From a virus, in the IMG/VR virus record IMGVR_UViG_3300046517_000257, positions 1 to 25,007 of that record: 25,007 nucleotides of DNA; one strand, given 5' to 3'. This document shows positions 4,836 through 25,007 of the stretch, in pieces. The notes below the pieces were generated by a model, which saw only the letters and a program-made list of their open reading frames with translations, searched no databases and was not told the DNA's origin. Each line of letters starts with the position of its first letter. The stretch's first letter is position 1. The position numbers were made by a program, and so were the translations under genes.

Positions 4836-5216
4836 TTAGTCCCTTTCGTCCTGGCGCACGACTGAGAAGATCCGCAAGCCCTCGCGCCGGCCGATCTCCT
4901 CGACGAATTGAATGTCGTAAACGCTATTGGCAGCCGGATCGCTTGGAGACTTCACCAGCGCCGACGCCGGATAAATAACGCGATCAATCGGCGTTATGTC
5001 GGCAATGATTTCCGCCCAGCGCACCACGAAGGCAACCGTCGCATTGCCGATAATTTGTTGTTTGGCGAACCGCTCCGACCCTGTGATCGGCTGCAGCGAC
5101 GCCGGCCGCGTCGACAGCGTGACCCAGGTCGGCACCGGCTCGCCCGACGCCGACTGCGAATAAACCGCGCGCTGGATCGCGATAGTGCGGTCGAGTGCAC
5201 CGCCGCCGCCCTTCAT
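4836..5216 (-). CDS. Head closure / head-tail adaptor protein (SPP1 gp16-like)
   Basis: 126 residues. The ATG at 5216 overlaps the stop of the upstream glycosyltransferase gene (ATGA), so I prefer it to the longer start at 5231. The sequence contains LDRTIAIQR, then GEPVPTWVTLSTRPASLQP, SERFAKQQ and an RW near residue 65, with IDRVIYP and a C-terminal GLRIFSVVR. This is the pattern of small beta-barrel head closure proteins (Phage_H_T_join type), which seal the connector after packaging. Its usual partner, the adaptor, is here about 10 kb away at 15142-15747, with surface and glycan genes between. Confidence 0.85.
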   Translation of the reverse strand: MKGGGGALDRTIAIQRAVYSQSASGEPVPTWVTLSTRPASLQPITGSERFAKQQIIGNATVAFVVRWAEIIADITPIDRVIYPASALVKSPSDPAANSVYDIQFVEEIGRREGLRIFSVVRQDERD

Positions 5217-6016
5217 TGGATCAGCCGCCACAAGGTGCCGTCGACCAACTCGGCTTCGTTAAACTGGCAATACGCCAACGAGTGCAGCCATTGATCGCGC
5301 TCGGGATAGGCCGGGCTTTCGATTTGGGAAAAATCGGTTTTCCCGACCAGCGCCGCCGCGCTGATCGGATCGACGAACACCGGGCAGCCCATGACCACCG
5401 CTTCGACGGCGGCAATCGAGCCGTGAGCGACCAGGCAGTGAGCGTCTTTGAGGTGTTCGAATAACGGCACTTTGCTTTCTTTGTCGCGCACAATGATTTC
5501 TCGGTCGGTGTATTGCTTGAGCTGCGCCAGCGTGCGCGCGGTCCAGCCGGGATCAGAAAACAAATTCCAGTAGTCGGGCAGGGTATCGGCGAGGACGATA
5601 TGCCGGCCCGACTTGCGCCAGGGCTTGACCTCCTGGCCGAGCTGCAAAGCGTTCCAGCGGTCGGCCGGCACGGGATAGATCTCGCGCATTTGCGGCGCGT
5701 TGACATGCCAACGGTAGAAGCCGCCGGGAATTCCCATGTCGCTGCCCTTCGGCAGCCAGGTCGCAAACACCCGCCGCAAATAGCCGCGGTCCCAGTAAAT
5801 CCAGGTTTTGCCGGCGGCCTTCCAGCGTTCGATATACGGCCGCAAAAACGGCGTGCAGCCGACAATCGGAATGATATCGGCCGGCAGCTCGTCGAGCCGG
5901 CGCGGATCGTCGCGCACCACGCGGCCGACTTTCACGCCAATGCCTTCAAACAGTTTCAGTTTGAATTTTTTCAAGCCGGGCGGAATGAACAGCGCCACCT
6001 TGCCGCGATCTATCAT
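5213..6016 (-). CDS. GT-B-like glycosyltransferase (capsule/Kdo-transferase-like)
   Basis: 267 residues. The ATG at 6016 overlaps the stop of the preceding gene (ATGA). Longer readings upstream are Arg/Ala-rich, out-of-frame copies of the neighbour. The N-terminal part has KVALFIPPGLKKFKLKLFEGIG. The C-terminal part has FEHLKDAHCLVAHGSIAAVE followed by AVVMGCPVFV, the pattern of nucleotide-sugar-binding GT-B domains in capsule synthesis and Kdo-transferase-like proteins: a His-Gly-Ser, then Glu and Gly-x-Pro-Val. A glycosyl transfer role is inferred; donor and acceptor are unknown. It is the last gene of the glycan cassette and is coupled to head closure, so it is co-transcribed with morphogenesis genes. 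Confidence 0.7.
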   Translation of the reverse strand: MIDRGKVALFIPPGLKKFKLKLFEGIGVKVGRVVRDDPRRLDELPADIIPIVGCTPFLRPYIERWKAAGKTWIYWDRGYLRRVFATWLPKGSDMGIPGGFYRWHVNAPQMREIYPVPADRWNALQLGQEVKPWRKSGRHIVLADTLPDYWNLFSDPGWTARTLAQLKQYTDREIIVRDKESKVPLFEHLKDAHCLVAHGSIAAVEAVVMGCPVFVDPISAAALVGKTDFSQIESPAYPERDQWLHSLAYCQFNEAELVDGTLWRLIQ

Positions 6017-6696
6017 CCGACCCGCCAATGTGCTTTGACCCAGGGCAGCCGCCCGAACAGTTCGGGCTTGCGCCAGCCGATAAACGTCACAATGCGCGCA
6101 TTGGGCGGCAGCTCGGCGTCGTGCCCCATTGGCCAGCCGGGCTTCTGGAAGGCGTAAATTCCGGACTGCTGCCCGCCTGGCCAGCCGGCCACGACCGGCA
6201 GCTTGTGCCAAATCCAGCCCTGATCGTCGGGGAATTCATGGAACGGCGCGCGGGCGGCTTTGGAGACTGAAAAGTCCGACCAGATCTCGGCGTGCCGGCC
6301 GACGCGCAATTGCATGACGCTGCAATTGTAGGGGTTCGGATTGCGCGCGTTGACGCCGCGCAAAATCAGAAAGCTGTCGTCGCGTTCAAACAGATCGCCG
6401 AACGGTCCGACCGCGATCAGGTCGAGGTCGAGGCTGACAACCCGATCCTCAAAGCCGTGCCGCTGTTGCCAGGCCGGATCGAACATGCGCAGCCGGCAAT
6501 AACAACCGCGGCCGATCAGCTCGGGATCCGAAATCGAGCGTTGCTCGACGCCGGCCGGCAGCTCCCGCGGCCGGTCGGTAAACACGACGAAGCGGTGCGG
6601 CGCTTTGTAATTGCGCCAAACGCCGGCCGCCAGCTTGGCCACATGGCTTTCGTTGTATTTGTCGCCCCATAGCCAGGTCACGAAATCTACAGCCAC
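6013..6696 (-). CDS. GT-A-like glycosyltransferase with DxD motif
   Basis: 227 residues, GTG start at 6696, overlapping the methyltransferase stop by about ten bases. The N-terminus AVDFVTWLWGDKYNE and the later PHRFVVFTDRP resemble glycosyltransferases commonly seen in phages of Alphaproteobacteria. A DLD motif lies near residues 90-92 in RVVSLDLDLIAVG, where GT-A enzymes bind the metal and nucleotide sugar. The C-terminal half contains FPDDQGWIW, which fits the usual acceptor and second acidic region. The substrate is unknown. The start is not certain because no strong ribosome binding site precedes it; translational coupling to the methyltransferase is likely. Confidence 0.75.
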   Translation of the reverse strand: MAVDFVTWLWGDKYNESHVAKLAAGVWRNYKAPHRFVVFTDRPRELPAGVEQRSISDPELIGRGCYCRLRMFDPAWQQRHGFEDRVVSLDLDLIAVGPFGDLFERDDSFLILRGVNARNPNPYNCSVMQLRVGRHAEIWSDFSVSKAARAPFHEFPDDQGWIWHKLPVVAGWPGGQQSGIYAFQKPGWPMGHDAELPPNARIVTFIGWRKPELFGRLPWVKAHWRVG

Positions 6697-7262
6697 AACA
6701 CGCCAATTCCGTTGTCTTGCTTGTCGTGTTTGATTTCAACGTGCCGGTAGGCCTGCTTGATCATGTTCCAGAACTGCGGCACCTCAATCGGCTTTTTGTG
6801 TTTCGGCATTGGCTCAGGCCGCCAAAAATTAATGTCGTGGAAGGCGACCAGCCGACACACTTTGCTGTAGTTGTCCCAATCCTTCGCCACATAAGGCAGC
6901 GTGTGGTTCGCGTCGATCAGGCAAGCGTCGAACGGTCCGAGCGCATAAACCCGCTCGATCACCGCGCCGTCAGTGCTATCGCCGATCAGCAAGTGAGCGT
7001 CGTAGCCTTTGCGCTTCAATGCTTCGACGCAATCATGCAAGTGCGGCAGCGTGTCCTTAAACGAGGTGTCGCCGTGCGGAAGGTCGAGCGCGACAATGCG
7101 CGATCCGGCCGGCAATGCGTTTGCGATATGCCACAACGAGCCGCCGAACTTGCAGCCGATCTCCAGATAACTCTTAACGCGCTCGGTCTGCAGTAGCTTG
7201 GTGAATTCGATCAGCTCGGTGCGGTTTTGCAGAAACGCCGTTTCGTATTTGAAGCTGGTCAA
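6687..7262 (-). CDS. SAM-dependent methyltransferase, class I
   Basis: 191 residues with a TTG start at 7262. AAAGAGG stands six bases upstream and supports this start. Motif I is visible at about residues 32-42 (YLEIGCKFGGS), an acidic residue ends the second strand near residue 60 (IVALD), and a CLIDANHTLPYVAKDWDNY block followed by VAFHDI resembles the Methyltransf_24 and cephalosporin hydroxylase-like groups. Placed between glycosyltransferases, it may methylate a sugar; that is inference. It overlaps the end of the GT9-like gene by 89 bases in another frame, an unusually long overlap for this compact region. Confidence 0.8.
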   Translation of the reverse strand: MTSFKYETAFLQNRTELIEFTKLLQTERVKSYLEIGCKFGGSLWHIANALPAGSRIVALDLPHGDTSFKDTLPHLHDCVEALKRKGYDAHLLIGDSTDGAVIERVYALGPFDACLIDANHTLPYVAKDWDNYSKVCRLVAFHDINFWRPEPMPKHKKPIEVPQFWNMIKQAYRHVEIKHDKQDNGIGVLWL

Positions 7263-8022
7263 GTGCTGCCTCTTTCACGGTGTCGACACTGATATTCGCC
7301 ATTGCCTGCGCGCAGTGTTTGCACGGTTTGATATTGCCGCACGCTTCCGCGCCGCCTGTTAAATTGGTGTGCAAATCGTACCCGGTCACTTGCGGCGGAA
7401 TGAAACCGCCGAACAGCACCACCGCCTTGACGCCGACTGCGGCGGCGGCGTGGTGCATGCCGCCTTCGGGACCGATATACAGCGCGGCGCGCGACAGCAC
7501 GGAAATCACATGGCGGAATTTCGGCAGCTCGATCAGATCCGCGCCGGCAATCATGCGCCTGGAATTGCCGTGTCTGAATTGCACCAGCCGGCAGCCCTGC
7601 AGCAGCAGCCGGCGGGCGAGCTCTTGGTATTTGCTTTCGCCCCAGTCCTTGTTCGGCGCGACCGATTTTTGCCAGGGGACGTTCGGCTCAATGACGACAA
7701 AGCCGGGCGTGAACATTCCGGCGATCTGGCGCTCGGCGTCGTCAAAAAAGAACTCGCCCGGCCGCGCCTTGAAATTGTAATTCCAGGCCCAGCGTCCATT
7801 CACCTGGCGGTTATATTTTCGGCGGCCTTTGTAGTGGTCGATCCATTCAAGGTCGCTTGCACCTTCCGCGCCAGGTGCCGCGACGTTCGGATTGCCTTGG
7901 TAGATCTCGGCCGCCCACGGTCCCCATAGTATTGTTTGACCGTCGCCGAAGGCTATTCGCTTTCCGCGTGCGTGGGCACCGCGCGCCAGGCCGCTACCGA
8001 TTATCTCGTCACCAAAACCCAT
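7174..8022 (-). CDS. GT9-family (ADP-heptose transferase-like) glycosyltransferase
   Basis: 282 residues from the ATG at 8022 (a TTG lies one codon upstream). It begins MGFGDEIIGSGLARG, like the Gly-rich first loop of the GT9 family. Further on it has FVVIEPN, KDWGESKYQELARRLL, and near the C-terminus ALYIGPEGGMHHAAAAVG followed by VVLFGG, the nucleotide-sugar-binding pattern of heptosyltransferase-like GT-B enzymes. The end has a Cys-rich CGNIKPCKHC segment. The last 29 codons overlap the methyltransferase gene and may be a nonconserved tail. The specific sugar is unknown; heptose is only the family's best-known donor. Confidence 0.8.
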   Translation of the reverse strand: MGFGDEIIGSGLARGAHARGKRIAFGDGQTILWGPWAAEIYQGNPNVAAPGAEGASDLEWIDHYKGRRKYNRQVNGRWAWNYNFKARPGEFFFDDAERQIAGMFTPGFVVIEPNVPWQKSVAPNKDWGESKYQELARRLLLQGCRLVQFRHGNSRRMIAGADLIELPKFRHVISVLSRAALYIGPEGGMHHAAAAVGVKAVVLFGGFIPPQVTGYDLHTNLTGGAEACGNIKPCKHCAQAMANISVDTVKEAALDQLQIRNGVSAKPHRADRIHQATADRAR

Positions 8023-8092
8023 CAATCAGGCCCAGGATTATGCCGGCCGCAATCGCGCACAGCGCCACAATCACCAGCATGCGCGGCGTCAT
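8009..8092 (-). CDS. 27-residue membrane microprotein
   Basis: A very short gene. Its ATG at 8092 overlaps the stop of the upstream glycosyltransferase (ATGA), and its TGA at 8009-8011 lies inside the start of the GT9-like gene, so it exactly fills a gap of about 65 bases in an otherwise overlapping operon. The product is MTPRMLVIVALCAIAAGIIL followed by GLIDGFW, one predicted membrane helix with a positively charged N-terminus. Function is unknown. It might anchor or assist the glycosyltransferases at the membrane. The start and stop geometry matches the rest of the cassette, which argues for a real gene, but its small size leaves doubt. Confidence 0.55.
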   Translation of the reverse strand: MTPRMLVIVALCAIAAGIILGLIDGFW

Positions 8093-8883
8093 GCGGCACG
8101 CGCGCCGCCGCGAACCGCGTCATAACGGCCGAAGGGTTTGGCGGGGATATACCGTTCGGCGGTGTATCCGGCCGCAACCGCCTCGCGCCATATCCGGTCG
8201 ACCAGCGGCTGCACGTCGGACCTCACATGCGGCAACGCCGCCGCCTGGCGGTTCCAGTGCTGTTGCCCGGCGGCGCGCAGACGCGGCAGCGCGTATTTTA
8301 AATGTGGCTGCGTTTCCACGCGCGTGAAGTGGATAATTTTAATGTCGGGATCGATCAGCGTTTTATAGGTTTCGCCGTCGAGGCAATTCCAGTTGCCGGC
8401 GAATTTTGCGGTTGCCGATCCGATAGTGTGGCGCACTTTGCGATAGAGGCCTTCCGTTTGCCGCAGCGCGTCGAACGCCGGCAGGAGTGCGCGGGCCTTG
8501 GCGCAATCAAACAGCATGACACAGGAATGCGTTTCGTCTTTTGACAACAGCACGGCGTTGTCTGGAATTGGTTGCGTCCACAGTTTCACGATATCGTCGC
8601 GGGCGATCTGGTCGACGTCCATGTAAATCGCTTTGCCTTCGTAGTTGCAGACATGGGGAATGGCCCAACGGAACGCCGAAAACGGTGTGGCCCAGCCGGC
8701 CGTCGTCCAGCCTTCGCGGGCGAGCGGGTTGGAGTACCAGGGCGAGGTCGGATCGCGCGATAACATCATCCAGTGAATGTCGACCGGCGCGCTGGCGTAA
8801 TGGCGCACGGTATATTCCAGCATGGCTTGCGCCTCGGCGTCCTCGCCGTTGGCGCTGCAGCCGACAAACAAGCGCACAGTCAT
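8089..8883 (-). CDS. GT-A-like glycosyltransferase with DVD motif
   Basis: 264 residues. The ATG at 8883 is chosen over a GTG at 8892 because it forms an ATGA overlap with the upstream stop and lies just after GGTGGAGG. The N-terminus MTVRLFVGCSANGEDAEAQA starts a Rossmann-like strand, and a DVD motif at residues 89-91 (KAIYMDVDQIA) is the metal and nucleotide-sugar site expected in GT-A and GT8-like enzymes. CVMLFDCAKAR and NWNCLDGE follow as the later conserved blocks, and IIHFTRVETQPH contains the histidine often seen near the end of such domains. The substrate is unknown. The C-terminal 40 residues are charged and variable-looking. Confidence 0.75.
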   Translation of the reverse strand: MTVRLFVGCSANGEDAEAQAMLEYTVRHYASAPVDIHWMMLSRDPTSPWYSNPLAREGWTTAGWATPFSAFRWAIPHVCNYEGKAIYMDVDQIARDDIVKLWTQPIPDNAVLLSKDETHSCVMLFDCAKARALLPAFDALRQTEGLYRKVRHTIGSATAKFAGNWNCLDGETYKTLIDPDIKIIHFTRVETQPHLKYALPRLRAAGQQHWNRQAAALPHVRSDVQPLVDRIWREAVAAGYTAERYIPAKPFGRYDAVRGGARAA

Positions 8884-9524
8884 AACCTCCACCTTTCCAG
8901 CATTTGATCGATCGTGAGCGTCGGGAATGCGGTCAGCGCGCTAAAGTGCGAACAATTCACAACGTCAATGCCGCGCGCCTTGAGCTTGTGGGCGTTGCCG
9001 TCGAGGTGCTTGCGCCATTGCAGAAACTGGCCGGCGTCCGGATTGCGCAGCGGCTGCGGGTGGTTGCCGTGCCAGTGCAGATCGCCGGAGGCGCGCATGT
9101 CGAAGCCGATCAGCGCAATGCCGGTTGCGCCGAATTGCGCCACCAGGTTGACCATTTGAAAACCGGAATTCCCGCCCGATCCGACCACGCCAGGCGTATC
9201 GAACAGAAAATCGTTGACCCACATTTCGGCGTGGCGGGCGATCTTCAGCCTGGCAATGCCTTCGATCTTTATGGCGTTGATCGGATCGTCGAGCGTCAGC
9301 TTGAGACCGGCGAAGTCTTTCACCTGATCGCGCCGCATGGACCACCAATCGGCGTCGCACGAGTAGAGAATTTCGGCCCACGGACACAGCCGGTAACTCT
9401 CATTGATCGCGATAACATGAATGCGATCTTTCAGCTTTTCGACGCCCGCGGTTTTTGCTGACGGTCCCGCGGCGACAATGGCCACGCATTCCCCGCGCCA
9501 ATCTTGCCACCAATCAGGCTGCAC
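8880..9524 (-). CDS. MptE-like / DUF115-like protein, possible glycosyltransferase
   Basis: About 214 residues from a GTG at 9524, overlapping the end of the Gly/Ala-repeat gene by 11 bases. A GTG at 9563 is an alternative; upstream of that the frame is only an Arg/Ala-rich shadow of the repeats. Near the N-terminus is CVAIVAAGPSAK, then VIAINESYRLCPWAEILYSC, and later GSGGNSGFQMVNLVAQFGAT followed by IALIGFDM. This set occurs in the MptE-like (DUF115) fold, related to sialyltransferase-like enzymes, and often appears in phage genomes beside glycosyltransferases. Activity is not known. It opens the glycan cassette. Confidence 0.7.
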   Translation of the reverse strand: MQPDWWQDWRGECVAIVAAGPSAKTAGVEKLKDRIHVIAINESYRLCPWAEILYSCDADWWSMRRDQVKDFAGLKLTLDDPINAIKIEGIARLKIARHAEMWVNDFLFDTPGVVGSGGNSGFQMVNLVAQFGATGIALIGFDMRASGDLHWHGNHPQPLRNPDAGQFLQWRKHLDGNAHKLKARGIDVVNCSHFSALTAFPTLTIDQMLERWRL

Positions 9525-10944
9525 GCTTGTCGAAGGTTTGGTCTGGCCGTTTTTCGAATTCACTTGCTGGCCGCGTTTCAAACGATCCGACGCCGACGCC
9601 CGTGGTCGGCGTTCGGCGCACAAGTCCGAACTGGACACCGAATGCGTTGCCGCGGCCGACGCCGGCACCGGCAAAGACGCTGGATGCGGTGCTGCGGGCA
9701 GCGCCAGCGCCCGAGCTGTTGCCCTGGCCCGCGCCGACCTGGCCAACCACGCCTTTGAAGGCAGCGCCAGTGCCCTGGCTCGATCCGGCCGCAATGGCGG
9801 GCTTTAACGCCGTACCGTTGGCCGCCGCTGATCCCTGGCTCGCGCCGGCACCGACTGCCGAAATGATCCACGCGCCCGCGCCGGATCCGCTACCGACGCC
9901 CGCGCCGCTGCCGAAGTAGGTTCCGGCCGTGGTCCCGACCGCAGCGCCCGCTCCATTGCCCTGACCGGCACCAACGGCCGAGGCCGAGCTGGCAGCCGCG
10001 CCAGCGCCCGCGCCAGGTCCGACGCCGGCACCCACGGCCGGCTTAAGGGCGGTGGCATTGGCGGCACCGCTGCCCGAGCTGGTGCCAGCGCCCTGGCTTG
10101 CGGTCGATCCCAGGGCCGCCGCGGCACCCTGACCATTGCCCTGGCCGGCACCCACGGCCGACAGGATCGCCACGCTATTGGCTGAGCCCGCGCCCTGACT
10201 GCTGCCGGCACCGACCGACCCCGCCACGGGCGAAGCGTTGCCAACGCCCGTTCCGCTGCCGGCACCGACTGCCGAGGCGGTAGATTTACCGAGGCCAGCG
10301 CCCGCGCCAGATCCGACGCCGGCACCGACTGCCGACGCAGTAGAAGCACCGACTGCCGCGCCCGATCCAGAACCAAGGCCCGCGCCGACTGCCGGCTTTA
10401 ACGCAAGTCCATTTGCCGCGCCGCTGCCGCTCGCCGCACCCCCGCCGACCGCCGACGCCGTGCTGATCGCAAGCGCGGCACCGCTGCCCGAACCAACGCC
10501 GGCACCGATTGCCGGCTCCAGCGCAACGTCATTTGCCGCGCCGCTGCCGAAGCCCGCACCCGCGCCGACCGCCGACACGATTGCGGAAGCATTTGCCGCG
10601 CCCGAACCGTTGCCCTGGCCCGCGCCCGCGGCCAACGAAGCGACCGAGCCGGTATAGGTCTCAACGACTTGCGCGCCATAGACGACGAGCTCGAGCGCGT
10701 TCGTTTCATTGATCGCCACGCCGCCGCTCGGCGTGTTCAAGACGTATTGTTTTTTGAAAATCGCTTTACCGACTGCGGCACCGCTGCCCTGGCTGGTGCC
10801 CGCGCCGACCGCTGGAATTACCGCGACGGCATTGGCGGCACCGCTGCCGCTGCCAGTGCCGGCTCCGGTCGCTGTCGCAAACGCCGCTGCCGGTACGGGC
10901 CAACCTTGAACGCCAAACGCTTGCCCGCGAAAGCTGTCAAACAT
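9514..10944 (-). CDS. Gly/Ala-rich repeat protein, probable virion surface protein
   Basis: 476 residues, ATG at 10944, overlapping the LamG-like gene by eight bases. Apart from a non-repeat block at about residues 63-105 (contains NALELVVYGAQVVETY), nearly the whole protein is made of about 19 units of close to 20 residues, with consensus VGAGxGxGSGAAxxxxxxxA. Two unit types tend to alternate, one ending in AL(K/E)PA and one in STASA. The C-terminus is different and charged, with the related pieces FETRP, FEKRP and FDKR. Silk-like low-complexity proteins of this sort occur among phage fibre or decoration proteins. Its Ser/Thr content and its overlap with the glycan cassette make it a possible glycosylation target (inference). 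Confidence 0.8.
   Translation of the reverse strand: MFDSFRGQAFGVQGWPVPAAAFATATGAGTGSGSGAANAVAVIPAVGAGTSQGSGAAVGKAIFKKQYVLNTPSGGVAINETNALELVVYGAQVVETYTGSVASLAAGAGQGNGSGAANASAIVSAVGAGAGFGSGAANDVALEPAIGAGVGSGSGAALAISTASAVGGGAASGSGAANGLALKPAVGAGLGSGSGAAVGASTASAVGAGVGSGAGAGLGKSTASAVGAGSGTGVGNASPVAGSVGAGSSQGAGSANSVAILSAVGAGQGNGQGAAAALGSTASQGAGTSSGSGAANATALKPAVGAGVGPGAGAGAAASSASAVGAGQGNGAGAAVGTTAGTYFGSGAGVGSGSGAGAWIISAVGAGASQGSAAANGTALKPAIAAGSSQGTGAAFKGVVGQVGAGQGNSSGAGAARSTASSVFAGAGVGRGNAFGVQFGLVRRTPTTGVGVGSFETRPASEFEKRPDQTFDKRAA
9622..10629 (-). repeat. 60-bp coding minisatellite (about 17 contiguous units)
   Basis: Within the Gly/Ala gene, residues 106-441 form 17 consecutive units: 11 of exactly 20 codons and the rest of 18 to 21. 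On the plus strand this appears as recurring GCCGGCACCGACTGCCG-like and GCCGCGCCGCTGCC-like words. Two further units lie before the non-repeat block, at about 10765-10872. Unit sequences have diverged, so the array is old or selected at protein level rather than freshly expanded. Such arrays can change length by slippage or recombination. Confidence 0.85.
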
Positions 10945-15750: not shown

Positions 15751-16560
15751 TCACCACTTGCGCCCGTCAGGGCCGAGCTGCGTGAGATCGCGACCGTCGC
15801 GGCCGTCCTTGCCGGCCGATCCAGGAGGCCCGGCCTTTCCTTCGCGTCCGTCGCGACCGCGTTTGTTGGTCAGCTGCCATTGGCTGTTCGGCGTGCCGGG
15901 CCGGCTGTCGGTGTCGGCCAGCGCCGCCCAGGTCGATCCTTCGTGCGTGGCGGTGTCGCCCGCCTGGTATTTGCCCTCGCGCCAGATCCCGCGGAACAAC
16001 GGCCAGGGCGGCGAAATCGAAAACTCCTGGACCTTATCGCCGCGCGCAAATTTGAATGTGATCGTGCGCTCGCCGTCAAATCCGACCGACAAATCCTCGA
16101 AGCCGAGGCCGTCCGCGCCGTCCTTCGGTGGTGGAAGTTTCGCAACTTCCGCTTTTATTGTTTCGTAAATCTTTGCCGGATCCGCGTCCGCACCGACAAC
16201 ATGGCCAGCCTTAAAAGTGCTGCCGTCAGAATAGCTAAGGTAAAGATCGCCTGCACGATCCACATAAACGTTAGCAAGGTGAGGCTGAGCAGCAAGAGCG
16301 CCGGCAATCTTAGCGTCGACCATATCGGCGGTAACAATCTCAGCGTCTGGATCGCCAGCATTGTTGTGGTCCTGGCCGAACGCTTCCGCAATCATGCGGC
16401 GCACTTCCTCGGCCTGTTCGTTCGTTAAGTTGTTCGGCGGCGACGTAAGTGCGCGTTCGATTTTCTCAATGCGCTCGGTGATCGGCAGCGCCCAGGCCTT
16501 GAAGCGATCCGCAACAAAGCGGCCGACCGTCTGCAGGAATAGTTTTTCAGAGGCTTGCAT
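15751..16560 (-). CDS. Virion protein with carbohydrate-binding-like module and collagen-like tail
   Basis: 269 residues, ATG at 16560 inside the last 14 bases of the portal gene, preceded by a GGGGCGGA ribosome site. The N-terminal 65 residues are helical (FVADRFKAWALPITERIEKI). Residues about 180-228 contain GIWREGKYQAGDTATHEGST followed by WAALADTD, the pattern of small CBM5/12-like modules. Residues about 235-258 are eight Gly-X-Y triplets (GRD GRE GKA GPP GSA GKD GRD GRD), a short collagen-like stretch suggesting trimer formation. A virion-anchored, sugar-binding trimer is a reasonable inference. Its position between portal and adaptor is unusual. Confidence 0.75.
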   Translation of the reverse strand: MQASEKLFLQTVGRFVADRFKAWALPITERIEKIERALTSPPNNLTNEQAEEVRRMIAEAFGQDHNNAGDPDAEIVTADMVDAKIAGALAAQPHLANVYVDRAGDLYLSYSDGSTFKAGHVVGADADPAKIYETIKAEVAKLPPPKDGADGLGFEDLSVGFDGERTITFKFARGDKVQEFSISPPWPLFRGIWREGKYQAGDTATHEGSTWAALADTDSRPGTPNSQWQLTNKRGRDGREGKAGPPGSAGKDGRDGRDLTQLGPDGRKW

Positions 16561-18028
16561 GATCGTCCGCCCCGCGTGTCATTTCAGCGAGTAACGCCGC
16601 TTCGTCGAGCCGCAAGTCGGGCAGCAACTTTTGAGGGGTCGCCGGGACTTGTGCCGGCGGCTTGCCGCCTGGTGCTGCAGCGGGTGCCGCTGCCGGCGTC
16701 GGCGGTTTGGCGGTTGCAAACGGGTCGGCCTTTGCGTCGCGCTTGGCCAAGGCCTCGAGCGAATAATTCTGCTGCTGCAGGTACGGCGTGTCGCCGCCCT
16801 TCACGGGCGGCAGGTTTAATTTTTGCCGGCCTTCGTTCGGTGCCAGAATTCCGTTTTTCACGCCGTCGCCATAAGTCTTGTATTGCGTGGCGGTGTCCAT
16901 TTTCAAAAGATCGTCGAGCGCAAACTCGGTGCCGTAGCCGGCCGACTCCAGCCCGAGACCGTCGTCGAGCAAACCCTCGATTGCTTCCATGAGGGTCTGC
17001 AGACATTGCGAATAATATTGCGAGTTGAGGGCTTCGACGTTGTTGTATTTCGGCGGCGTCGACGCGCCGACCATGTAGGGCGGCACATGGAACACACTGC
17101 AGACAGTTTCCGAAGTCCACTGCAGTTGATTGATCAGCTGGCTGTCGACCGCGTTCACGGTCATGCCTTCGTATTTGAGGCCGTCGCCCAGCACCGCGAC
17201 TTTGCCGGAATTCGCGCCGGTGTAGTTTTGCTCCCAATGTTCTTTCAGTCGTTTGGCGGTATCGTCGGAGATCGTGCCTGGCGCGCTCAGAATGCCGCCA
17301 GGGCGCGAGCCATTCTGGAAAAACATGGCCGAGTTATTCTGAATATTGAGGCCCTGCGTGGCCGCCAGGCCGCAAGCCGTGATCGGAGAAACGCCGACCA
17401 GCGGGTGGTAAAACGGGATCATGACGTCGTGAATGATTTCCGACGCCGGGATTGTCACCGCGCCGCGCGTCACTTCGGTGGTGTCGACGCCGCCGGCCGA
17501 GGTTTGAATGCCGGCCAGCCAGTTGGTCGAAAGCTGGTAATAGACCGATCCGTCCGGTGCAATCAGCACCCGCGTCATGAGCGGGTCGAGGACGTACATG
17601 CTGGTGACGACGTTGCGGTTGTCGCGCTCTTTTAAAATATACGCATTACCGTGCAGCAGTTTCGAGGTCACCCATTGTTCAATAAATTTTTGGCGAATTT
17701 GATAATGGTTCGGCTTGGAGAGGACCGGCGAAAATGCCGGCACGTCCACGTCTTCCCACACTTCGGTATCTTCATTTTCAGAAACGAGGTTCAAACACAG
17801 CTTGCCGATATCGGACGCGATCAAGGTCACGCACGCATAGACCGTCGAGAACGTCAAAACATTGTCGAAACGAATTTCAACGTTGCGCTGCCATGCACCC
17901 GGAAAACTTTCGCGAATGATATTGAACCAGCCGCTACCGCCTGGCGTCACTTGTCCCCAGCCGCTCGGCGGCAGCGTCGGGCCTACCGGCGCTTTGGTGA
18001 CCTGGATTTCGTAACCAAACACCCGCAC
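16547..18028 (-). CDS. Phage portal protein (HK97 family)
   Basis: 493 residues, GTG start at 18028 preceded by GAGG about ten bases upstream. The portal is the dodecameric ring through which DNA enters and leaves the head. Features of the HK97-type portal are visible: TFSTVYACVTLIASDIGKL near residue 60, LLHGNAYILKERD near 125, a long AIGxxx-free helical wing with ACGLAATQGLNIQNNSAMFF near 220, and GILSAPG, then FHVPPYMVG and NVEALNSQYY near 310-330. The C-terminal 60 residues are Ala/Pro-rich, probably flexible. The gene follows the capsid gene rather than preceding it, a reversal of the common portal-protease-capsid order. Confidence 0.95.
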   Translation of the reverse strand: MRVFGYEIQVTKAPVGPTLPPSGWGQVTPGGSGWFNIIRESFPGAWQRNVEIRFDNVLTFSTVYACVTLIASDIGKLCLNLVSENEDTEVWEDVDVPAFSPVLSKPNHYQIRQKFIEQWVTSKLLHGNAYILKERDNRNVVTSMYVLDPLMTRVLIAPDGSVYYQLSTNWLAGIQTSAGGVDTTEVTRGAVTIPASEIIHDVMIPFYHPLVGVSPITACGLAATQGLNIQNNSAMFFQNGSRPGGILSAPGTISDDTAKRLKEHWEQNYTGANSGKVAVLGDGLKYEGMTVNAVDSQLINQLQWTSETVCSVFHVPPYMVGASTPPKYNNVEALNSQYYSQCLQTLMEAIEGLLDDGLGLESAGYGTEFALDDLLKMDTATQYKTYGDGVKNGILAPNEGRQKLNLPPVKGGDTPYLQQQNYSLEALAKRDAKADPFATAKPPTPAAAPAAAPGGKPPAQVPATPQKLLPDLRLDEAALLAEMTRGADDHASL

Positions 18029-20725: not shown

Positions 20726-20929
20726 ATGGCGCAAATCCGTTGGAATACCAAAACCGTTCCTGACGGAACGCAGTACGGACAAGACTTGCGCGTGCTGGAA
20801 TATTTCGACGGGACCGATTGGCAACAGGTGCCGGAGGTCGACAGCCGACCGCTGCCGCAGCCGCTCAATTCGGAGCCGCCCACACCGCACACGGCTGAGG
20901 AACCGGCTCCGCAAATTCCGGCAGCATGA
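20726..20929 (+). CDS. Small plus-strand protein of unknown function
   Basis: 67 residues on the plus strand, the only gene in that direction. The ATG at 20726 follows ACAGG at seven bases; a TTG at 20696 is an alternative. The product begins MAQIRWNTKTVPDGTQYGQD and continues LRVLEYFDGTDWQQVPEV, a compact, plausible folded unit with well-placed aromatic and charged residues. The last 25 residues are Pro/Glu-rich. Opposite frames here are Arg-rich or Cys/Ser-rich and look like shadows. Its start faces away from the capsid start (56 bases between), and its last 65 bases overlap the end of the methyltransferase on the other strand. Function unknown. Confidence 0.6.
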   Translation: MAQIRWNTKTVPDGTQYGQDLRVLEYFDGTDWQQVPEVDSRPLPQPLNSEPPTPHTAEEPAPQIPAA

Positions 20930-21461
20930 CCTCGCAAATCTGCGAATAGTGCACCAAGCGAAACCCGCGTTTTAAAAGCACCGGCTCGAACTCGGTGGTC
21001 TCGTCTGCGCTGCCGCGCCACACGAAAAATTTGCCGGTGTGGCGGGCAAAGTGATCGACCAGCGCCAAGAGCTCGCCGGCCGGCATGGCGCGGCGCAGCT
21101 TGTGGTAGACCGCCAGCATCAGCATAAAATCGTAATGCGCGTGGTAGTGGCGGCCGAATGCGTGTTTGACCGCTTCCGGCCCATGCGTCAGGTCGACGAC
21201 CTCAAAGCGGGCGTCGACTGATCGAATGTCGGCAAACCACTCGTTAGCGGTGCGAATGGTTTCGGTGGACTTGTCGCAGCCGTGCACGACAGCAGCGCCA
21301 GCAAGTACAAAATCGTGACACACAGCGCCACGATTGCAGCCAATGTCGAAAACGGACTTGTCGCGGCCACGCGGTAAAAGATCAGCCAAACCGTCAAGAC
21401 GATAAGCGCTGAAATTAATAACTCGACGCTGGACACCTTTATCGGTCCAATCGGCCGGCAT
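20865..21461 (-). CDS. SAM-dependent methyltransferase, class I
   Basis: 198 residues, ATG at 21461 in a TAATG junction with the large terminase stop. Motif I is at residues 37-45 (VFDIGCNRG), an acidic residue closes the second strand (VVHGCDKS), and motif II-like VVDLTHG follows. The C-terminal half (YDFMLMLAVYHKLRRAMPAG and later FVWRGSADET) matches small-molecule or sugar-type methyltransferases rather than DNA methyltransferases, as it has no (D/N/S)PP(Y/F/W) motif. The substrate is unknown. It may act with the glycan cassette or on capsid or host targets. Its end overlaps the convergent plus-strand gene. Confidence 0.8.
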   Translation of the reverse strand: MPADWTDKGVQRRVINFSAYRLDGLADLLPRGRDKSVFDIGCNRGAVCHDFVLAGAAVVHGCDKSTETIRTANEWFADIRSVDARFEVVDLTHGPEAVKHAFGRHYHAHYDFMLMLAVYHKLRRAMPAGELLALVDHFARHTGKFFVWRGSADETTEFEPVLLKRGFRLVHYSQICEVMLPEFAEPVPQPCAVWAAPN

Positions 21462-23017: not shown

Positions 23018-23455
23018 TCAGCTCTCCCAGGGCTTCGGTCCCGACAGCGTGTTGCGCGACGCCGTGGCCGCTGCCTGCGGCGTGTAGCGCGATTGATTGG
23101 TCAACCGCATTTTGGTGGCGAGATCGGTCGCGCGCTTACTTTCCTCGTTGCGCATGCGCAAATAGAGCTGCAGCCGCCTGGCGCCTTCCTCGGGCTTGAT
23201 CCAATCGTCCTGGAAATAGGCAATGATCCGGCTCAGCCGTTCGATTTCGGAGCGGGCCCGGCAGTAATCTTTCAGCATGCTTTGCAGGGCAGCGGTGGCC
23301 AGGAAGTCCTTCGGCTCGCTGCCCGCGATCGATCGCCAGGTCGCTTTCTGTTCGTCGGTCAAGTCGTCGGGCGGATCCGGCCGGCCTTTGTCGAAATTGC
23401 CCTTGATCACCACCAGGCCGGCCTCGACGGCCGACTTGCGTCCGCGTTTGTTCAT
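23018..23455 (-). CDS. terS: Terminase small subunit
   Basis: 145 residues. The ATG at 23455 overlaps the stop of the ParB-methyltransferase gene (ATGA). The N-terminus MNKRGRKSAVEAGLVVIKGN is basic, then DPPDDLTDEQKATWRSI begins the helical core, as in P27-type small terminases. A long helical region (LKDYCRARSEIERLSRIIAY onwards) would form the oligomer core. The protein recognises the packaging site and recruits the large subunit, which follows directly. The fit to the family is good by pattern and context, although small terminases vary a lot in sequence. Confidence 0.85.
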   Translation of the reverse strand: MNKRGRKSAVEAGLVVIKGNFDKGRPDPPDDLTDEQKATWRSIAGSEPKDFLATAALQSMLKDYCRARSEIERLSRIIAYFQDDWIKPEEGARRLQLYLRMRNEESKRATDLATKMRLTNQSRYTPQAAATASRNTLSGPKPWES

Positions 23456-24963
23456 TCTGCTGCCGACACTTTCGGTTTCTGTTCAACGCGGGCGGCGGCC
23501 ATTTCGTCGTAGCTGCGGCCATCTTCCAGCAGCACGACCGGCTGATCCGGATAGAGCTTGCGGTATCGGACGACCGTTATGTCGCAATAGTTCGGCGAGA
23601 TCTCACAGCCGAGGCCTTGGCGTTTGGTTTCCTCGGCCGCCACGATAGTCGAGCCGGAACCGCAAAACGGGTCGTAAATCAAATCTTGTTCGTCGGAATA
23701 GGCGCGGGCAAAAAACGCCGGCAGCCCGACCGGGAACGCAGCGGCGTGGCCGGTTGCCTCGTGACTGCCGGCAAAGGTCGGCAAGCGGTTACCCGGGTAG
23801 GCAAGCCCTGGCGCGATCCAATCCGGATTGACGCCGAGCGGCGCGCCGGACTGCCAATGCGTGCCCTGGCTGCCTTCCGCGGACGGGTGCCCTTTGCGTT
23901 TTTTTCGCATTTGCGATCCGAAGATCGGCTGGCGCGTGCCCTGGCGGTTGGCCCAGCTGGTCTCGCCAATGCCAGGCCCGGCCGGCAACGGAACATTCTC
24001 GCTCATGTGGCGAACCGCATCCGGCCGCATTTTCCAGCGGTCGCGGGCGAACTGATAGACCGGCTCGAATTGGTTTTTAAAGCGTTGCACGACGCGCTTC
24101 GGCACGCCGACGCGCTCCCAGCAAAACTCGGTCGCGAAGTGCCAACCCCATTGGCGCGCGTGTGCCAGTACGAGATCAAACACGTACAGGTCGGTGTCGA
24201 GGCCCGCGCCGCTCGGCTTGATGTTCACAAACCAAGATCCGTCAGCGGCCAGGTGCCTGGCGACATTGGCCGCCACTGGCGCAAACCATTCGACGTACTG
24301 ATCGGGCGGCACCGGCTGAAAGCCGGAACTCTTATCGTAATCGCGCTGCACGGCGTAAGGCGGCGAGGTGAATGCGACATTGATCCGCTGCCCGGCCACT
24401 AAACGGTCGACTGTTTTTCCGTCACGGCAATCGCCGCAGATCAATCGGTGGCGGCCGAGCTGCCAGATATCGCCGGCAAGCGTTACCTGCTGCGCGGGAA
24501 CTTCCGGAATGACGTCAAGCGCGGGATCGGGAACGCCGTCGCCCGATCCGCGCAGCAGCGCGTCGATATCGGCAAAGCCGATCAGGCCGATATCGAAGTC
24601 GAGGCCCTGCAACGCCTTCAGCTCGCCGCCGATCAAATCAAAATTCCAGGCGGCGTTAAGTGCCAGCTGATTGTCAGCCAATCGATAGGCGCGCTTTTGT
24701 GCCTCGCTCCACCCCGTCGCAATCATGACCGGGGCTTCCGCCAACCCGAGCCGACCCGCCGCCAATATGCGGCCGTGCCCAGCTATAACTTCGCCAACCT
24801 CGTCGCAAAGTACCGGGATCGTCCAACCCCATTGGCGCATTGAGGCGGCTAGCTGATTGATCTGGCTTTCCGAATGCGTGCGCGCGTTCGTTTCGAACAG
24901 TTTCAGCGACGCAATCGGCCGGCGTTCGACGCGATCCGCCGGCCAGGCCGGCGACGCCGCCAC
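23452..24963 (-). CDS. ParB-like nuclease domain / DNA methyltransferase fusion
   Basis: 503 residues from a GTG at 24963. The frame stays open to the window edge (25007), so the true start may lie further upstream. Residues about 12-110 are a ParB/Spo0J-like domain (LFETNARTHSESQINQLAAS and the GHGR motif at 62-65). Residues about 160-490 are an amino-methyltransferase: TSPPY at 199-203 before DPFCGSGS at 431-438, the beta-class order for N4-cytosine or N6-adenine enzymes. A long insert between them contains basic, target-recognition-like sequence. No restriction enzyme lies nearby, so it is probably an orphan enzyme that protects or marks phage DNA. It opens the packaging block. Confidence 0.88.
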   Translation of the reverse strand: MAASPAWPADRVERRPIASLKLFETNARTHSESQINQLAASMRQWGWTIPVLCDEVGEVIAGHGRILAAGRLGLAEAPVMIATGWSEAQKRAYRLADNQLALNAAWNFDLIGGELKALQGLDFDIGLIGFADIDALLRGSGDGVPDPALDVIPEVPAQQVTLAGDIWQLGRHRLICGDCRDGKTVDRLVAGQRINVAFTSPPYAVQRDYDKSSGFQPVPPDQYVEWFAPVAANVARHLAADGSWFVNIKPSGAGLDTDLYVFDLVLAHARQWGWHFATEFCWERVGVPKRVVQRFKNQFEPVYQFARDRWKMRPDAVRHMSENVPLPAGPGIGETSWANRQGTRQPIFGSQMRKKRKGHPSAEGSQGTHWQSGAPLGVNPDWIAPGLAYPGNRLPTFAGSHEATGHAAAFPVGLPAFFARAYSDEQDLIYDPFCGSGSTIVAAEETKRQGLGCEISPNYCDITVVRYRKLYPDQPVVLLEDGRSYDEMAAARVEQKPKVSAAE

Positions 24964-25007
24964 GTCAAGGGCCGGGCCGGATTTGTTACGATTTTTAATT
25001 TGTATTG

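Follow-up and report, generated by a model that had tools for sequence, protein, structure and literature searches.

A glycosyltransferase and methyltransferase cassette among the virion genes of a tailed phage, and its proposed role in virion glycosylation

We analyzed a 25,007-nucleotide stretch of the virus record IMGVR_UViG_3300046517_000257 (the window), whose minus strand carries the late module of a tailed phage. Within this module, six enzyme genes and a gene for a 27-residue membrane peptide run head to tail at 5213-9524 (-), each overlapping the next. We propose, with moderate confidence, that they form an optional late-gene cassette whose soluble enzymes would build a short O-methylated oligosaccharide in the cytoplasm, most likely for transfer to a phage structural protein. 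The cassette itself is real and widespread, beyond what chance would give, as purifying selection on its enzymes and a recurring gene set in largely conserved order both attest. Related loci are numbered L, and iteratively built profiles were run on the open reading frames (ORFs) of the fetched loci.

Enzymes of the cassette

The first cassette gene, at 8880-9524 (-), is also its most widespread member and encodes a 214-residue protein that matches phrog_4603 (E 5.7e-42). A preliminary description of the window had called this protein MptE-like, and the Pfam MptE-like profile (PF01973) does match it, at 19.2 bits and E 0.0011 (under the cut-off of 34.6), as it does 12 of 22 relatives at E up to 0.01. 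The name nonetheless gives way to another on structural comparison: the AlphaFold model (pLDDT 92.2) finds its top match in the flagellin glycosyltransferase Maf (5MU5; Z 15.9 over 188 of 214 residues), followed by the GT42 sialyltransferases CstI (Z 13.0) and CstII (Z 12.4; range 11-13) and the archaeal MptE kinase (Z 12.1). The protein is thus predicted to be a Maf/GT42-fold enzyme, although the fold alone leaves its reaction unfixed, the MptE kinase also matching at Z 12.1. The kinase reading is not favored, given the higher Maf score and the strong phrog_4603 match.

The next enzyme gene, at 8089-8892 (-), has an alternative ATG at 8883 that overlaps the preceding stop. Its product is a GT-A glycosyltransferase with a DVD motif at residues 92-94; D92 and D94, the aspartates of the DxD motif, are 100% conserved across 35 sequences of the family, as is H188. 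Because it scores only 15.3 bits (E 0.015) against Pfam Glyco_transf_8, under the cut-off of 24.3, we name it GT8-like only; a profile built on its family picks up GT8 enzymes weakly. The peptide gene follows at 8009-8092 (-) and encodes a single-span membrane micropeptide of 27 residues, MTPRMLVIVALCAIAAGIILGLIDGFW, with a hydropathy of 2.99, which is conserved in locus L006 and absent in L009.

Two further members pass their Pfam cut-offs. The GT9 (heptosyltransferase-like) glycosyltransferase, at 7174-8022 or 7174-8025 (-) depending on which of two starts is used, matches PF01075 at 36.9 bits (cut-off 22), and its GxGD and EGGMHH motifs are more than 90% conserved over 55 sequences. Its C-terminus is longer in the window than in the L006 orthologue, and its frame shares 89 nucleotides (7174-7262) with that of the methyltransferase gene that follows. 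The latter, at 6687-7262 (-), encodes an S-adenosylmethionine (SAM)-dependent O-methyltransferase of the Methyltransf_24 family (MT24; PF13578, 28.4 bits, cut-off 26.3), in which E34, G36, D117, H120 and D143 are conserved over 59 sequences.

The gene at 6013-6696 (-) encodes a GT8-type GT-A glycosyltransferase with a DLD motif that matches phrog_1962 (E 4.8e-14) and no Pfam family. A profile of its family matches solved GT8-type enzymes in the PDB (Gat1, 6mw5, E 0.0025; glycogenin, E 0.05-0.5), and residues D90, D92, D158 and Q159 are 100% conserved in 75 sequences. The last gene, at 5213-6016 (-), encodes a GT-B-like glycosyltransferase whose nearest structural relatives appear to be the 3-deoxy-D-manno-oct-2-ulosonic acid (Kdo) transferases KpsC, WbbB and KrkA. 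Foldseek gives KpsC as best match (E 1.2e-5) and VIA-align gives 6mgd at Z 8.2, both from a model with a pLDDT of only 58.4; a sequence search of the PDB gave no match for this protein, and we regard the call as the weakest of those made for the enzymes. A block of the form HGS-E-G-PV is conserved over 66 sequences of its family. Single-sequence phmmer searches of the PDB with three of the cassette enzymes gave no convincing relatives.

Catalytic motifs are intact across 35-75 relatives per enzyme family, and pN/pS, the ratio of nonsynonymous to synonymous polymorphism, is 0.15-0.40 for all six enzymes against their L006 and L009 orthologues, indicating purifying selection. None of the six has a membrane span, as expected for cytoplasmic protein glycosylation. 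The earlier suggestion that these genes build and methylate a short glycan is well supported by gene content.

Linkage to virion genes and recurrence in other phages

In order of transcription, the window encodes a ParB/DNA methyltransferase, TerS, TerL, a SAM methyltransferase (g198), a fusion of protease and major capsid protein (MCP), portal, adaptor and head proteins, a Gly/Ala/Ser repeat protein, the cassette, the head-closure protein Hc1, tail terminator, neck, major tail proteins and tape measure. Virion genes thus enclose the cassette, from terminase, MCP, portal, adaptor and head proteins upstream to Hc1 and the tail genes downstream. The Hc1 gene (4836-5216, -; PF05521, E 9.7e-12; phrog_25) is coupled to it by an ATGA overlap between its own ATG and the stop of the GT-B gene. 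The coordinates, adjusted where another start codon fitted better, agree with the preliminary description on all of these points: six enzyme-like genes and a microprotein with overlapping starts, enclosed by virion genes and joined to the head-closure gene. G+C content and G+C at third codon positions in the cassette match those of the flanking genes and so give no sign of recent acquisition, and internal promoters or terminators within the cassette show no excess over shuffled sequences.

The same association recurs in other phages. Across Maf-like loci in which both flanks are visible, which were found by homology to the cassette genes rather than by position, the Maf-like gene has the MCP/portal block on one side and the neck gene on the other in 19 of 19, although three Nitratireductor loci seem to be close kin, so that independent lineages number fewer than 19. 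Among these loci are prophages of Phenylobacterium, Nitratireductor, Xanthobacteraceae, Lysobacter and Halomonas, together with Tetraselmis viridis virus S20 and phage D3. At 5691-6409 of the D3 locus (L039), the Maf-like match (5867-6388) covers both annotated orf6.5 and orf7, so that orf7 has probably been annotated with the wrong start.

Searching via the phrog_1962 glycosyltransferase, we obtained 62 dereplicated viral contigs, many of them truncated, so that counts are lower bounds. The GT-B gene is present in 61, MT24 in 56, GT9 in 54, the Maf-like gene in 44 and GT8 in 36, with order largely kept. MT24 lies directly upstream of the phrog_1962 gene in 47 of 53 testable contigs, the GT-B gene directly downstream of it in 42 of 58, and Hc1 is found downstream in every contig that shows it (40/40). 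Homologues of g198 (20865-21461, -), which in the window lies between TerL and MCP and has weak methyltransferase Pfam matches, lie within the cassette in many relatives, L011 and L012 among them, and in or beside it in 39 of the 62; g198 is a seventh cassette enzyme, displaced in this phage. The proteins, then, fall within glycosyltransferase and methyltransferase families or folds, and their genes stay linked rather than scattered in related phages.

Among the further members of related cassettes are methyltransferases of the TylF and FkbM types, GT8 enzymes scoring above the Pfam cut-off, and a hexapeptide acyltransferase, additions that fit a variable glycan. The acyltransferase, at 7789-8337 of L151, suggests acylated sugars in some phages. 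Another cassette contains a protein with NUMOD3 (homing-endonuclease) motifs (L026, 10130-10783).

The cassette is nonetheless optional. In a portal-anchored sample of 41 dereplicated contigs spanning the connector region, picked regardless of the cassette, 12 carry a Maf-like gene in this region, two carry other cassette genes and 27 carry none. This distribution marks the cassette as accessory and argues against an essential role in assembly, in agreement with phage P1, whose homologues pmgO, pmgP and pmgQ are listed as non-essential and named "putative morphogenetic" (PMC10695390). In the window the portal itself is seemingly split (15751-18028): portal phrog_2271 is matched in its N-terminal part by the main gene and at its C-terminal end by the one after it.

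Possible targets of the glycan

In the scheme we envisage, chain synthesis probably begins with the Maf/GT42-fold enzyme acting on Ser or Thr, as Maf does on flagellin. The two GT8-type enzymes, the GT9 enzyme and the Kdo-transferase-like GT-B enzyme would then extend the chain and the methyltransferases would cap it, with sugar nucleotides supplied by the host. Attachment to the structural protein would take place before or during head-tail assembly.

One possible, unproven acceptor is the Gly/Ala/Ser repeat protein at 9514-10944 (-), whose gene overlaps the cassette start and whose sequence (24% A, 24% G, 12% S) is made of roughly 20-residue repeats. Large A/G/S/T-rich ORFs occur in only two of 104 comparable loci, by a strict filter and with the window's own clade left out, so this protein would be at most a local partner rather than a general acceptor. 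Similar A/G/S-rich proteins occur in L006, L011 and L012.

Several points weigh against a virion glycan. A glycan on the virions of these phages is so far a prediction, its acceptor is hypothetical, and the adjoining Ser-rich repeat protein is not a general partner. Hc1 linkage is not absolute: in four lineages the cassette lies between MCP and portal, and in Caulobacter phages between tail and lysis genes. Both the GT-B call and the GT8 call at 8089-8892 are weak by sequence, the GT-B model also being of low confidence. Finally, 21 larger contigs, almost all of which contain cassette genes, yielded no cytidine monophosphate (CMP)-sugar synthetase (controls were positive; the records may be incomplete), so any nonulosonate chemistry would have to rely on the host.

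The main rival, which we consider unlikely, is that during infection the cassette modifies the O-antigen, capsule or flagellin on the surface of the host, a change that could, for instance, prevent superinfection or release progeny from receptor-rich debris. Lipopolysaccharide and capsule pathways typically employ GT9 and KpsC/WbbB-like folds, Maf itself acts on flagellin, and the Caulobacter phage cassette sits beside lysis genes. However, the cassette contains no flippase, polymerase or polyprenol-linked membrane glycosyltransferase, its enzymes are soluble, and its interleaving with assembly genes points to late expression. We therefore give less weight than virion decoration to the change of host surface that the preliminary description had also allowed.

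A second alternative, glycosylation of phage DNA (hypermodified bases) as protection against restriction, seems to us very improbable. Thymidylate-synthase family genes serve many DNA-hypermodification pathways. A search of 21 contigs, almost all of which contain cassette genes, turned up no member of the thymidylate-synthase/hydroxymethylase family; the controls were positive, but the test is an imperfect one, covering this one route to hydroxylation in records that may be incomplete. The cassette families, moreover, match protein- or glycan-directed enzymes, and the linkage is with head-tail genes. In favor of DNA as target stand the gene at 23452-25005, upstream of the terminase genes, in which a DNA methyltransferase is fused to a ParB-like domain, and the abundance and diversity of phage DNA glycosyltransferases (Pyle 2024, as cited in PMC12619734).

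Least probable of all is that the genes provide morphogenesis functions unrelated to sugars, for example as assembly chaperones that keep ancestral glycosyltransferase folds as scaffolds only, a role that the naming of the P1 homologues and the tight Hc1 linkage might suggest but that the intact catalytic motifs, the 27 of 41 relatives without the cassette and the non-essential listing of the P1 genes argue against.

Comparison with known systems

Our literature searches, in which subscription papers were mostly outside coverage, found no earlier description of the cassette. Its first enzyme shares a fold with Maf (5MU5), CstI and CstII; it differs in that identity is 12-16% and the phage protein is a single 214-residue domain.

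Phage-encoded glycosyltransferases glycosylate capsid and tail-tube proteins of mycobacteriophages (Che8 and others; Freeman et al. 2023, as reported in PMC11256854 and PMC12619734). Our proposal resembles this system in that phage glycosyltransferases would act on virion proteins. The glycosyltransferase genes of Maravista, which belongs to cluster F1 and is related to Che8, lie near the 3' end of the genome, not between head and tail genes as here. If virion glycosylation by the cassette is borne out, phages of Proteobacteria would commonly have glycosylated virions, which would then not be a mycobacteriophage specialty, with implications for the stability, adsorption and recognition of phages and for competition between them.

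The cassette also has smaller or rearranged versions. In the Caulobacter giant phages CcrSC (L196, 4372-8858) and CcrColossus (L197, 3323-7876), a related six-enzyme cassette, flanked by a tail gene and by lysis genes, holds a Maf-like gene, two GT-B genes, GT8, a methyltransferase and GT9 in a row. Their order differs from that of the window, the methyltransferase has no MT24 profile match, and the row has no phrog_1962 gene. In virus S20, two Maf-like genes, other glycosyltransferase- and methyltransferase-like genes and a phrog_1962 gene lie between the capsid gene and Hc1, which the phrog_1962 gene directly precedes; its counterparts to the window cassette are limited to the Maf-like and phrog_1962 genes, most other members being different.

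The pmgO-pmgP-ppp-pmgQ stretch of P1 is also similar. As identified on the P1-like phage RCS47 (L038, 2938-5496), pmgO belongs to the Maf/GT42-like family, pmgP is its paralogue and pmgQ is a phrog_1962 glycosyltransferase; the stretch differs in having no GT9, GT-B, GT8 or methyltransferase gene, in including a phosphatase and in its position. We suggest, tentatively and with more doubt than conviction, that a widespread phage system of protein O-glycosylation, as yet undescribed, is built around the Maf/GT42-fold enzyme. This enzyme would attach the initial sugar straight to a virion protein and variable partners would extend and methylate the chain, with P1 pmgO-pmgQ as the laboratory version of the system. 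This would give P1 genes that carry only a "putative morphogenetic" label a testable biochemical function, in a phage and host that are laboratory standards, and the Caulobacter phages offer a fuller cassette in which to pursue it.

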